A stretch of 64,000 bases of DNA, taken from assembly GCA_018333525.1 (NCBI GenBank), contig JAGXTF010000075.1:1-64000 (forward strand), written 5' to 3'. A model generated the notes under the pieces. It was given only the letters and a program-made list of their open reading frames with translations, ran no database searches and had not been told where the DNA came from. Source of the stretch: Bacteroidota bacterium (lineage in GTDB: Bacteria > Bacteroidota > Bacteroidia > NS11-12g > UBA955). Below are positions 12,826-19,970 of the stretch, in pieces (position 1 is the stretch's first letter; the number at the start of each line of letters is the position of its first letter). The position numbers and the translations under genes are program-made.

Positions 12826-14541
12826 TTAATTCAACCCAACACCAACATGAAAGCCAACCCATGCAATTCCTTTTCTTCCATAATTAAAGTCAAATGATTG
12901 AATGGGTTTGATATAGGAAATGGGATCCTTGTAATTTGTATATGTTCCGGTAGTTCCTGTGGTGTAATAAAAATTCAAATCCGGGCCGAACATCACACTC
13001 ACTGTTTTAAAAAGCGTTAACTCCTGGTAAAGTGAAATTCGGGTCAACATGGGTATATCATGGAAAGTTCCCAAATACAATGCATTGCCCACAACTTCCA
13101 CGTGCAGATTGGCCTTCCTGCCTTCTCGAATGCTGCATCCGATTCCATACCCCGCACTGTAAGCCTCATTCGGATAAGGATGGTAACCGGCAGTTAAAAT
13201 ATTGTAAAAATATCGGGATCCGGTGCGAAGGGTTGCGTTGTGTTGTAACACATCAGAATAAGAATATTCTACCTGATGCACACCGGATTTGCAGAAAGAT
13301 AAAAATCCGATTTGCACCCCATAAATGGTATCTACCAAATTGATAAACCCAATTTGTGTTCCATACAATTTATGTGCGCGATTCACCAGTCCACTGATTT
13401 GAGTACCTTGCACAAAATTTGCAGTATTTATTACTCCCGCAATTTGAGTTCCCTGCAGCCTGTCTGTATAATTGATGACACCAGCAGCCTGCGTGCCACG
13501 CAATAATTTCTTTTCAAAATTCATTACACCTGCAGCCTGAAATCCGGTGAAATTTCCGGAACAGGTATTTAAAACACCTCCAAATTGTGCTCCGCGAAAT
13601 TCACTGAAATGGTTATTTGCAACTCCACCAAATTGCGCTCCATTAAATGGTCCGGCTGTTAAATTATACACTCCCGCAAACTGCGCTCCTGCGCTGCTAT
13701 CTCGGTCTATATTAAAAATACCTCCAAATTCTGCCCCCTGAATACCTCCGCTGTATCCTCCCAGAATATTGAGGGAAATATTATTGGTAACTGCACCCGA
13801 CATGGAACCATTCGTTCCTAAATAAGGTAAAAAAGATACCTGCCAGTGTTTGGTGAGTTTGCGTTTTAAATTCAATGATTGAAGTCGCTGTTTTGCATTG
13901 GTAAGCAAATTCACAAGTGCATCATTATCCAATTTGGTTTTTCCGCTATCCACGTAAATAGTATCTTTCGGTTGCCACTTCTCCAGTGCAATGCTCAATT
14001 GCCTGTTGTCAATCGGTTTTACCAAAATAAAAGTATCTCTGTAATTCGCTTTTGAAATGCCTATCTGCCGTTCCTGATCTGGATTCTGTTCTATGGAAAG
14101 GGAATAAAAACCACTGCTGTCGCTAAACGTGCTTTTTAGCGTTGCGCTGTCAAAAATACTCGCAAATGGAAGTATGGTATTGTTCGAAGCATCATATACG
14201 TATCCGCTGATGGTATACACAAATTTCTCATTTTTAGCTACAATTTCAGAAGTGCTTTTAAGGATAATATATTTTCCTTTTTCCCTAAAAACTATCTGAT
14301 TTCCCAATGTTTTTTCTAAAACAGTAATCAATTCGGTTTCCACAAAATTTCCGTTATACACCGGACCATCATTGAATATTTCAGCATTGTAAGCGAATCT
14401 TGCATTGGATTTTGTTTCTATCTGATGCAAAAAATCTGCAGCCTTTTTATTTTCAAATTGGATAGTGATTTTCTGATTGAGAATTTGGGCATGCAGAAAC
14501 AACTGAAATCCGGCTAACAATAATAATAAAAACAGTCTCAT
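12826..14541 (-). CDS. STN-domain protein with carboxypeptidase-like domain and LA_2272-type surface repeats
   Basis: 571 residues in an unusual order. Signal peptide 1-19; STN (secretin/TonB N-terminal, signal-receiving) domain about 22-98 (KITIQFENKKAADFLHQIE, YIILKS); CarboxypepD_reg-like domain about 108-187; a linker; then ten copies of a G-x-Q-x-x-G-V-x-N repeat at about 262-415 (for example RGAQFGGVLN, RGTQAAGVIN, QGTQIAGVIN) as in the LA_2272 surface repeat family; and a C-terminal outer-membrane-like region. There is no TonB plug or SusC barrel. The ATG overlaps the FecR stop (TAATG), so it takes the position normally held by the receptor regulated by FecR. Likely an outer-membrane sensor or target of this sigma system. 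Confidence 0.75.
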   Translation of the reverse strand: MRLFLLLLLAGFQLFLHAQILNQKITIQFENKKAADFLHQIETKSNARFAYNAEIFNDGPVYNGNFVETELITVLEKTLGNQIVFREKGKYIILKSTSEIVAKNEKFVYTISGYVYDASNNTILPFASIFDSATLKSTFSDSSGFYSLSIEQNPDQERQIGISKANYRDTFILVKPIDNRQLSIALEKWQPKDTIYVDSGKTKLDNDALVNLLTNAKQRLQSLNLKRKLTKHWQVSFLPYLGTNGSMSGAVTNNISLNILGGYSGGIQGAEFGGIFNIDRDSSAGAQFAGVYNLTAGPFNGAQFGGVANNHFSEFRGAQFGGVLNTCSGNFTGFQAAGVMNFEKKLLRGTQAAGVINYTDRLQGTQIAGVINTANFVQGTQISGLVNRAHKLYGTQIGFINLVDTIYGVQIGFLSFCKSGVHQVEYSYSDVLQHNATLRTGSRYFYNILTAGYHPYPNEAYSAGYGIGCSIREGRKANLHVEVVGNALYLGTFHDIPMLTRISLYQELTLFKTVSVMFGPDLNFYYTTGTTGTYTNYKDPISYIKPIQSFDFNYGRKGIAWVGFHVGVGLN

Positions 14542-17736: not shown

Positions 17737-19227
17737 ATGAAACAGATTATTTTAATTTCAGTTGTATTTTTACTCCACCTGTATATTCATGCACAGGTAG
17801 CAAATTTTTCCGGATTTGACAGTTATCTGCCAATAAATGGCGGCGACATTAATCCAGCACTAAATGCGGAAAGTCGCGGGAAATGGGTTTTTTCTCCGGG
17901 AAGAATGGACATGAATCTCACCAATAATTTATTTTATCTGAAAATGCCATATTCGCCGTATAAGGTTATTGGAAAAAATGTGCCTTCCGCATATAAAACT
18001 GAAAATGGAAATGCATATTGGGACTGGAGCTGGTTTAAAATGAATTCTAAAACAAATGTTTTTAATTTTCAGGGGATTTCACGCAATTACGGTCCTTCAC
18101 TTATTTTGAAAAAAGGTAAATATTATTTTAGTGTGAGAAGTGAAATTACAGCCTTTGTATTTTGTAAAGGATTACCTGCAGGAATTATTCGGGATCAGGT
18201 GGATAACTGGAATAATTCTGATGGAAATTCTGCTCCATCGACATTGCTCAACTCTGCTTTTCAATATAGAAATGCCACCATGTATATTTCTCAGCAGGTG
18301 TATTCCGGTGTTTCATTTGGGGTTGCAAGAAAATTCAAATTGAAAAGAAGCAAAGATTTCAGTATGGGTGTGAACTACAGATTGCTTCATTCCATGGGCG
18401 GGTATTATTTGAAGGTAAAAACTGGCAATGTAGAGGCAGAAAATGCAAGCCATATTAAGATATCTGCGCCCTCTGTTTATTTTGCAGAAATGCTCCCACG
18501 CAACAATATTTTCTGGCCTCATGGCAAGGGGGGGGTAGATTTTGGTTTTGTGTTTACACACAGAAATACAGAATGCAGAAGACCTGGAAATTATAATGGA
18601 ATTCACCCGGATTATAAATGGAAATTGGGATGGTCTGTTTTGGATATTGGAAGGTTGATGTATACAAGAACAATAGTTACCAATGTTGCCATGAAGAACG
18701 ATGTTTCATTGCCGGATCCCAACGGGTTTATAGACAAAGATCCGGAGGAAATATTGCAAGATTATCGCTCCATTTTTCAAACAGAAATAGGTTTGGAAAA
18801 TACCATGACATATGGGAAAAAAGTATTTGTAGGTTTGCCTACACGTTCCATTTTTACTGCAGATTTACAACTTTCCAGACATTTATTTTGGGGCAGTATG
18901 TACATGCAAAATATGAGAAGAACTGTTAAGAATAATATATTTTTCGCATCCAATTTTTCTACCGGATTGCGGGCGGAATTCAAATATTTTGGATTTTCAC
19001 TACCACTAAATTATGCCCCATCTTTAAATGCTGCTACTGTGGGAATGGGAGTTCGGATTGGGCAGTTGTATTTCGGAACCGGGAATCTGGCGCCATTTAT
19101 TCATCCAAACGGTAATTATGCGGCGTCTTTTTATTTCGGGATACAAATTACTGATTTGCCCGGTACAGTTTTTCGCAAAAAATTGCCCTATATGTTCTCC
19201 GGAAGAAGGAGTTGTGCAGGGTTTTAA
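17737..19227 (+). CDS. DUF5723 family outer-membrane protein (first paralogue)
   Basis: 496 residues with a signal peptide (ILISVVFLLHLYIHAQ). The N-terminus has the family landmarks: INPALNAESRGKWVFSPGRMDM then NNLFYLKMPYSPYKV; later GPSLILKKGKYYFSV, WKLGWSVLDIGRLMYTRT, VGLPTRSIFTADLQLSRHLF and GMGVRIGQLYFGTGNL. The even pattern of alternating strands suggests a beta barrel of the outer membrane. Function is unknown. The second copy (19971-21446) lies tail to tail with it across a repeat array; the two share the same order of motifs, so they arose by duplication. Confidence 0.75.
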   Translation: MKQIILISVVFLLHLYIHAQVANFSGFDSYLPINGGDINPALNAESRGKWVFSPGRMDMNLTNNLFYLKMPYSPYKVIGKNVPSAYKTENGNAYWDWSWFKMNSKTNVFNFQGISRNYGPSLILKKGKYYFSVRSEITAFVFCKGLPAGIIRDQVDNWNNSDGNSAPSTLLNSAFQYRNATMYISQQVYSGVSFGVARKFKLKRSKDFSMGVNYRLLHSMGGYYLKVKTGNVEAENASHIKISAPSVYFAEMLPRNNIFWPHGKGGVDFGFVFTHRNTECRRPGNYNGIHPDYKWKLGWSVLDIGRLMYTRTIVTNVAMKNDVSLPDPNGFIDKDPEEILQDYRSIFQTEIGLENTMTYGKKVFVGLPTRSIFTADLQLSRHLFWGSMYMQNMRRTVKNNIFFASNFSTGLRAEFKYFGFSLPLNYAPSLNAATVGMGVRIGQLYFGTGNLAPFIHPNGNYAASFYFGIQITDLPGTVFRKKLPYMFSGRRSCAGF

Positions 19228-19256
19228 AGGAGAATTAAAAATTAAATAATTATAAC

Positions 19257-19712
19257 GTCGTTGGTCCTCATGCCTTGCCTGCGAAGCGCAAGGCAATCAA
19301 CGACTTACCAGGAATCAATTTGTTAAAAATTTCAGAGCTGTTGGTCGCCGCACGTTACACAATGCGGCGTGAGGACCAACAGCGCTCAACGCACTGTACT
19401 TTTAACTACGAATATACCGTCGTTGGTCCTCATGCCTTGCCTGCGAAGCGCAAGGAGACCAACGACAAATCAGGAATCAATTTGTTAAAATTTCAGAGCT
19501 GTTGGTCGCCGCATGTTTCAACAATGCGGCAAGAGGACCAACAGCGCTCTACGCACTGCACTTGGAACCACCGCAATACCGTCGTTGGTCCTCATGCCTT
19601 GCCGGCGGAGCGCAAGGAGACCAACGACAAGCCCAGAATTAATTTGTTAAAACTTCAAAGCTGTTGGTCGCCGCATGTTACACAATGTGGCGTGAGGACC
19701 AACAGCGCTCTA
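19257..19712. repeat. Three tandem 162-bp double-hairpin repeats
   Basis: Copies begin at 19257, 19419 and 19581, an exact 162-base period. Each has two hairpins. Hairpin A (19257-19304, 19419-19466, 19581-19628) has outer arms GTCGTTGGTC / GACCAACGAC and inner arms CCTTGC / GCAAGG. Hairpin B (19337-19383, 19498-19545, 19660-19706) has arms GCTGTTGGTC / GACCAACAGC and an inner CCGCAT / ATGCGG stem. A spacer with AATTTGTTAAAA is conserved between A and B. The array lies between two convergent DUF5723 genes. A 160-codon frame across it is an artefact. Changes in one arm are partly matched in the other. Confidence 0.9.
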
Positions 19713-19810
19713 TCATTTTTATCTCATTTCCATGGATTGATTTGGTTGTGTTTTTAATATTTATTCTTTGCTGAAAATCTTACAGATTTTGGCATGACCC
19801 TGTAGGGGTC

Positions 19811-19853
19811 ACATATTGCTAGCCCCGGGTTTCAACCCGGGGCAGCAATATGT
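19811..19853. repeat. Long GC-rich palindrome
   Basis: ACATATTGCTaGCCCCGGGTT tc AACCCGGGGCaGCAATATGT is a nearly perfect 20-bp-arm inverted repeat with a 2-3 base loop. A smaller GACCC tgtag GGGTC palindrome lies directly before it at 19796-19810. No T run, so it is more like a dispersed palindromic element than a terminator. Confidence 0.7.
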
Positions 19854-19871
19854 ATTGAATGCGTTTGGCGA

Positions 19872-19902
19872 TTTTTTTTGCGCCGAAGGCAAGCAAAAAA
19901 AA
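19872..19902. terminator. Terminator-like hairpin between convergent DUF5723 genes
   Basis: TTTTTTTTGC ... GCAAAAAAAA arms around an 11-base loop (gccgaaggcaa). It lies 70 bases beyond the stop of the leftward gene and may end transcription in either direction. Confidence 0.45.
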
Positions 19903-19970
19903 TGACAAACCATGAAAGAATTTATTTACGATTTTTGGATTAAAAATTTGTAACCCAATTTTAGAAAATA

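Follow-up and report, generated by a model that had tools for sequence, protein, structure and literature searches.

The window, i.e., the whole stretch of 64,000 nt analysed here (contig JAGXTF010000075.1 of assembly GCA_018333525.1, a Bacteroidota bacterium of the lineage NS11-12g; UBA955), contains a short tandem array between two convergent genes. The upstream gene, which stops 23 bases before the array, is a distant paralogue (27% identity, BLASTP 1.6e-46) of the downstream DUF5723 gene (Pfam PF18990, 2.2e-24), and the description of the pair as convergent paralogues in the first-pass annotation was correct. Both genes are listed as context only:

17737 to 19227, plus strand: upstream flanking gene, an open reading frame
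19251 to 19712, no strand: BIME-like array in which a 162-bp unit is present in 2.8 tandem copies, each unit carrying an inverted pair of REP hairpins (I minus, II plus), from TRF, repeats and the covariance model
19257 to 19304, minus strand: REP type I of unit 1, covariance-model match of 67.3 bits, with a decayed arm (GTTGATT)
19337 to 19383, plus strand: REP type II of unit 1, covariance-model match of 59.6 bits
19419 to 19466, minus strand: REP type I of unit 2, covariance-model match of 72.2 bits
19498 to 19545, plus strand: REP type II of unit 2, covariance-model match of 66.8 bits
19581 to 19628, minus strand: REP type I of unit 3, covariance-model match of 71.2 bits
19660 to 19706, plus strand: REP type II of unit 3, covariance-model match of 61.4 bits
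19971 to 21446, minus strand: downstream convergent gene, an open reading frame

TRF applied to the window reported a single array (19251-19710) with a period of 162, 2.8 copies, 88% matches and a score of 706. The hairpins follow each other in the order I(−), II(+), I(−), II(+), I(−), II(+). The exact 162-base spacing of three copies that had been claimed before holds for the type I hairpins, which start at 19260, 19422 and 19584. For type II the starts are 19340, 19501 and 19663, with spacings of 161 and then 162 bases, since the first type II copy is one base shorter. The window has 13 occurrences of the heptamer GTTGGTC, with 5.1 expected, and 11 of the 13 lie inside the array. Directly after the array (19796-19910) the window carries a second, unrelated dispersed repeat, composed of GACCCTGTAGGGGTC, ACATATTGCTAGCCCCGGG..CCCGGGGCAGCAATATGT and TTTGGCGATTTTTTTTGC..GCAAAAAAAATGACAAA. 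Elsewhere in the genome this repeat has about 17 matches with 75-91% identity, and some of these are in tandem (C117/C31, 257 bp apart). A 48-bp tandem repeat in two copies was also seen at 13549-13641, within the minus-strand open reading frame 12826-14541.

The two hairpins of a unit are one element in opposite orientations, in agreement with the earlier view of two related hairpins with nearly the same core. The element consists of an outer stem of 10 bp (G-NN-GTTGGTC / GACCAAC-N'N'-C), an inner stem of 7 bp, a loop of roughly 9-11 bases and a bulge of five unpaired bases, usually ATGAG, that is confined to the 3′ side. The two variable outer pairs are TC/GA in type I and CT/AG in type II. 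DNA folding predicted this structure for both types, with z-scores of −4.0 to −5.7. In unit 2, seven stem pairs differ between type I and type II, and six of these seven are double changes that keep the pairing. Same-type hairpins of the array differ without any compensatory double change: the differences lie in the loop, are one-sided or break a pair, as in the type I hairpin of unit 1, where one arm is decayed (A-C mismatch). The statement that paired changes preserve pairing is therefore valid between the two types and, as described below, across the genome, but not among same-type copies of the array.

A covariance model was built from 41 distinct hairpins, and a match of at least 44 bits was counted as strong. 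In the genome-wide alignment 17 pairs are formed and 96.7% of the cells are paired. Double changes occupy 139 cells, compared to 43.5 after shuffling, which breaks the relatedness between copies, and to 8-20 in slid structures, which preserve it; sliding the partner strand abolished the covariation signal. Almost no variation is seen in TTGGT/ACCAA or in the bulge's GA, while the remainder covaries, with GGTG/CACC variants in place of GGTC/GACC as compensatory stem changes. The covariance analysis proposed in the first-pass annotation thus came out in favour of its view, and the hairpin structure is under selection. Outside the hairpin, strong conservation over 66 copies is limited to one base, the G that immediately follows the 3′ foot. 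The unpaired GT[AG]G of canonical GTAG-tagged REPs is absent from the 5′ foot, each of the 28 upstream bases carrying at most 0.66 bit over the 66 copies, and the same copies have no conserved unpaired CGTC tag.

These 66 copies are the matches of the covariance model at ≥44 bits in the own genome, and 60 of them lie beyond the array of the window, so that the recommended search for further units was clearly positive. The exact GTTGGTC..GACCAAC hairpin was found 42 times (the reversed control pattern was not found at all), and blastn detected 22 matching stretches. Other arrays are present on C12 (8 hairpins), C31 (6) and C59 (7) as well as on C99, C89 and C14, and arrays comprise 1 to 8 hairpins with both orientations together. 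Neighbours within 150 bp are inverted in 29 of 35 pairs, and in arrays of the two main types, type and orientation alternate in every neighbouring pair but one. After removal by hand of 12 spurious open reading frames that consisted of hairpin DNA, 65 of the 66 copies are intergenic, and the one exception sits in a probable N-terminal over-extension of a transposase open reading frame. The 31 intergenic sites include 11 between convergent genes (among them the array of the window), 14 between co-directional genes and only 2 between divergent genes. Short palindromes in many copies, an extragenic position and alternating orientation are the general criteria for REPs and BIMEs, and all of them apply to these hairpins. 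On C14 (G000:C14:57898-58421; L059 4893-5422) we also observed a tandem array with a period of 141 bp and a single orientation, which is cut off by the contig end; its unit combines a hairpin of the GGTG type with one of another kind, TGTGCTTGC..GCAAGCACA.

All-versus-all comparison of the proteins encoded near the hairpins revealed one recurring transposase family with three paralogues (C59, L038; C104, L083; C58, L085). These match the NCBIfam profile NF047646 (REP-associated tyrosine transposase, RAYT) with E-values of 1.4e-17, 2e-20 and 5.4e-17, respectively. With 62-73 bits all three are below the curated cut-off of 80 bits, a threshold that only 1 of 14 control genomes passes while 6 of the 14 match the profile. 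The three proteins also score below the cut-off of Pfam Y1_Tnp, and a sequence search of the PDB gave weak matches only, the best being E. coli TnpA-REP (4er8, E 0.033). An alignment of 28 proteins shows that the HUH, tyrosine and SSA tail motifs (MPNH[IF]H, Y[IT]HxNP, SSA) are intact in all three. The motif set of RAYT/TnpA-REP class 2, i.e., HUH, a single catalytic Tyr in Y-x-x-x-NP and a C-terminal SS motif, is complete; the individual versions in the C59, C104 and C58 proteins are NHIH, NHIH and NHFH, then WE, WE and WK, and finally YIHDNP, YTHNNP and YIHKNP.

Hairpins adjoin all three RAYT genes, and a rough estimate puts the chance of this far below 1e-6. The C59 gene (C59:61535-62050) is preceded by four hairpins and followed by three, which belong to the same types I and II as those of the window. 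One match of the model lies upstream and two lie downstream of the C104 gene, and the C58 gene has two matches on one side and a related, decayed stretch of the CGTCGGTCGCC.. type on the other. The hairpins at C104 and C58 have GGTG or CGGTG cores, and therefore each RAYT has its own related hairpin set. The C59 RAYT, which lies between seven copies of both hairpin types of the window, is most likely the cognate enzyme of the window hairpins. An associated RAYT with the same REPs on either side, a further general feature of REP/BIME elements, is likewise present.

Among the groups described so far, TnpA-REP subclass 2.6 comes closest; it corresponds to RAYT group 5 of Bertels, occurs in Bacteroidetes and is characterised by NH[LIV]H, WQ and YIH[QN]NP (Quentin et al. 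2018, PMC6006769). Its genes were found by manual inspection to be "flanked by atypical secondary structures" (PMC6006769). As in this subclass, the RAYTs described here are from Bacteroidota, have about 170-180 aa and an SS tail, and are encoded by genes between non-canonical hairpins that recur at other sites of the genome; their HUH and tyrosine motifs are close to NH[ILV]H and YIHxNP, and they differ in having WE or WK instead of WQ. Gene content, such as DUF5723 and the Por secretion tail, likewise points to Bacteroidota. Judged by the described motifs, our RAYTs appear to be close to this subclass. The E. coli RAYT gene yafM has a BIME on each side, and RAYTs with flanking inverted REPs have been published (PMC2817692). 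E. coli TnpA-REP requires a bulge in the REP stem (PMC8266576). The arrangement in our genome resembles E. coli BIME-2 (Y-Z2 pairs) in the inverted alternation of two hairpin types, and E. coli BIMEs and yafM in the hairpins on both sides of a RAYT gene and in the conserved bulge that breaks the stem. It differs from the E. coli REPs by the lack of a GTAG guide, by unrelated sequence, by another RAYT subclass and by fewer copies. Most knowledge of REP-RAYT systems comes from Proteobacteria, in which the GTAG guide plays a central part. CGTC-tagged palindromic repeats, reported in Bacteroidetes, also form inverted heterodimers, have an unpaired CGTC tag and are without a transposase (Di Nocera et al. 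2013, PMC3733652), whereas in our genome a RAYT is present and the unpaired tag is absent. Type I read backwards does begin with CGTC, but the G, T and C of this string take part in pairing, and no such match is seen in the other types.

In other genomes the exact hairpin was not found, apart from probable chance matches. In 57 relatives, blastn with the array gave no match beyond the own genome, and in 107 other genomes of the order the best score of the covariance model was 31 bits, compared to 76 bits in the own genome. The exact pattern had three lone matches in unrelated phyla among about 85,000 GTDB species genomes, about the number estimated for chance, and none in viral contigs. RAYT homologues are present in 22 other genomes of the order, and palindromes flanking the relatives' genes include GTGGTTGGTG..CACCAACCAC, TTTGTTGGTG..CACCAACAAA, TGGTTGGTCTTTACGC..GAGACCAACCA and GTTGTTGGTC..GACCAACAAC, with GGTTCGTG..CACGAACC in one sub-clade. 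In a tree of 27 RAYT proteins, palindromes with a TTGG core accompany 16 of the 19 members of one supported clade (96/95) and none of the 8 proteins outside. The core labels had been set by eye prior to tree construction, and shuffling them gave equal clustering in 0 of 200 trials (all groups together). The association of hairpin and RAYT recurs in other genera with diverged RAYTs. The first-pass annotation had stated that a lack of copies in related genomes and of compensatory changes among the units would speak against its view. Compensatory changes were found; the exact hairpin was indeed not found in the related genomes searched, where related RAYTs carry related TTGG palindromes. REP systems typically show lineage-specific repeats, and for this reason we do not count the absence against a REP. 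A shorter hairpin, GTTGGTCTCGCTCCGCTGCGCTGCACAAAGACCAAC, was noticed in the own genome (C91, C3, C118), and a similar form occurs in two other genera (G008:C38, G018:C77); in G018 it flanks the RAYT of that genome, which suggests an older, shared REP type.

We are highly confident that the array is a BIME of a Bacteroidota REP-RAYT system, in which two REP hairpins of opposite orientation have been amplified together in tandem. Mobile DNA of this kind is known, and the array adds a new example that is specific to its lineage. The earlier suggestion of an amplified mobile palindromic, REP-like element is supported by the 60 further strong copies and by the three hairpin-flanked RAYT genes, and its advice to look for a REP-associated tyrosine transposase proved fruitful. 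It is unlikely that the hairpins are instead kept for a task in a transcript, such as protection of mRNA 3′ ends or termination between convergent genes. Such a structured RNA or terminator would fit the low number of divergent sites, the RNA fold of the array (z −7.8) and also the covariation of the stem; a downstream bias is, however, also reported for REPs generally (PMC3733652). The hairpins lack a T run and match no Rfam family. Further points against a role of this kind are that both orientations occur side by side, that the arrays are lineage-specific and hold 1 to 8 hairpins, and that RAYT genes are adjacent. A structured transcript between the convergent paralogues, the other option named in the first-pass annotation, is a possible side effect and is not needed to explain the array.

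A repeat that is mobilised by an unrelated element, for instance a MITE of a DDE transposase, and that came to lie beside RAYT genes incidentally is very improbable. The IS200-like Y1 genes with other hairpins in the same genome and the second dispersed repeat beside the array would be compatible with it, but this reading has to face the hairpins at all three RAYT genes, with the very low chance estimated above, and the recurrence of the association in other genera, and no long terminal inverted repeats of the DDE type were seen. The IS200-like Y1 genes were themselves considered as mobilisers and rejected: the five PF01797 genes of the genome are surrounded by other palindromes (GACCC..GGGTC, CCCAGAAC..GTTCTGGG, CGAATCC..GGATTCG), and only one of them has a GTTGGTC hairpin, at a distance of about 330 bp. 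In an integron-like cassette array the hairpins would act as attC-type sites for a tyrosine recombinase. The folding into hairpins that carry a bulge is in line with this idea, and similar hairpins separate genes of the same orientation on C32, C80, C91 and C15. The arms of attC sites read RYYYAAC..GTTRRRY, while GTTGGTC..GACCAAC has the reverse order and does not match GTTRRRY. Moreover, no genes lie between the units in the window, arrays alternate in orientation, and the best candidate for an integron integrase reaches 81 bits, below the cut-off of 265, so that the integron reading is mostly refuted and has next to no probability left.

For the REP-RAYT system we infer that the hairpins are mobile and that they are bound and cut by the RAYT; the strand and site used and the origin of the tandem copies would be as follows. 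The hairpins would serve as single-strand recognition structures of a Y1/HUH transposase, and a REP would fold when the DNA is single-stranded, e.g., on the lagging strand. The RAYT may then read the TTGGT/ACCAA stem and the one-sided bulge, cut beside the hairpin and copy or move pairs of REPs into intergenic DNA. After the insertion of a pair, the 162-bp unit could be multiplied, either by the RAYT or by recombination or slippage between the repeats. More tentatively, and with rather more doubt than conviction, we consider a guide-less system, in which this RAYT clade would read the stem core (TTGGT/ACCAA) and the bulge instead of a 5′ tetranucleotide, types I and II would represent left and right ends, and only inverted I/II pairs would move.

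In Bacteroidota, the REPs of subclass 2.6 had been reported only as "atypical structures"; a defined example from what appears to be a close RAYT group is now at hand: a hairpin with a covariance model and a matched RAYT, in two types that alternate like Y and Z of E. coli and have no guide tetranucleotide. How such a RAYT would find and cut its REP is now directly testable, and three RAYT paralogues with related but distinct hairpin sets in one genome are suited to the study of REP-RAYT co-evolution.

Two further observations concern the transposase genes of this genome. Directly downstream of an IS200-like Y1 gene (L034, G000:C101) there are about ten tandem copies of ACGACCCCTACTGGGTCG plus a spacer; this hairpin family is distinct from the REPs described above and goes with another Y1 enzyme. 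A motif resembling ATATAACCGTTTATTTCCG, with repeated CCG/TTTAT, closely precedes several of the RAYT and IS200-like genes (L030, L032, L038, L085) and is possibly regulatory.
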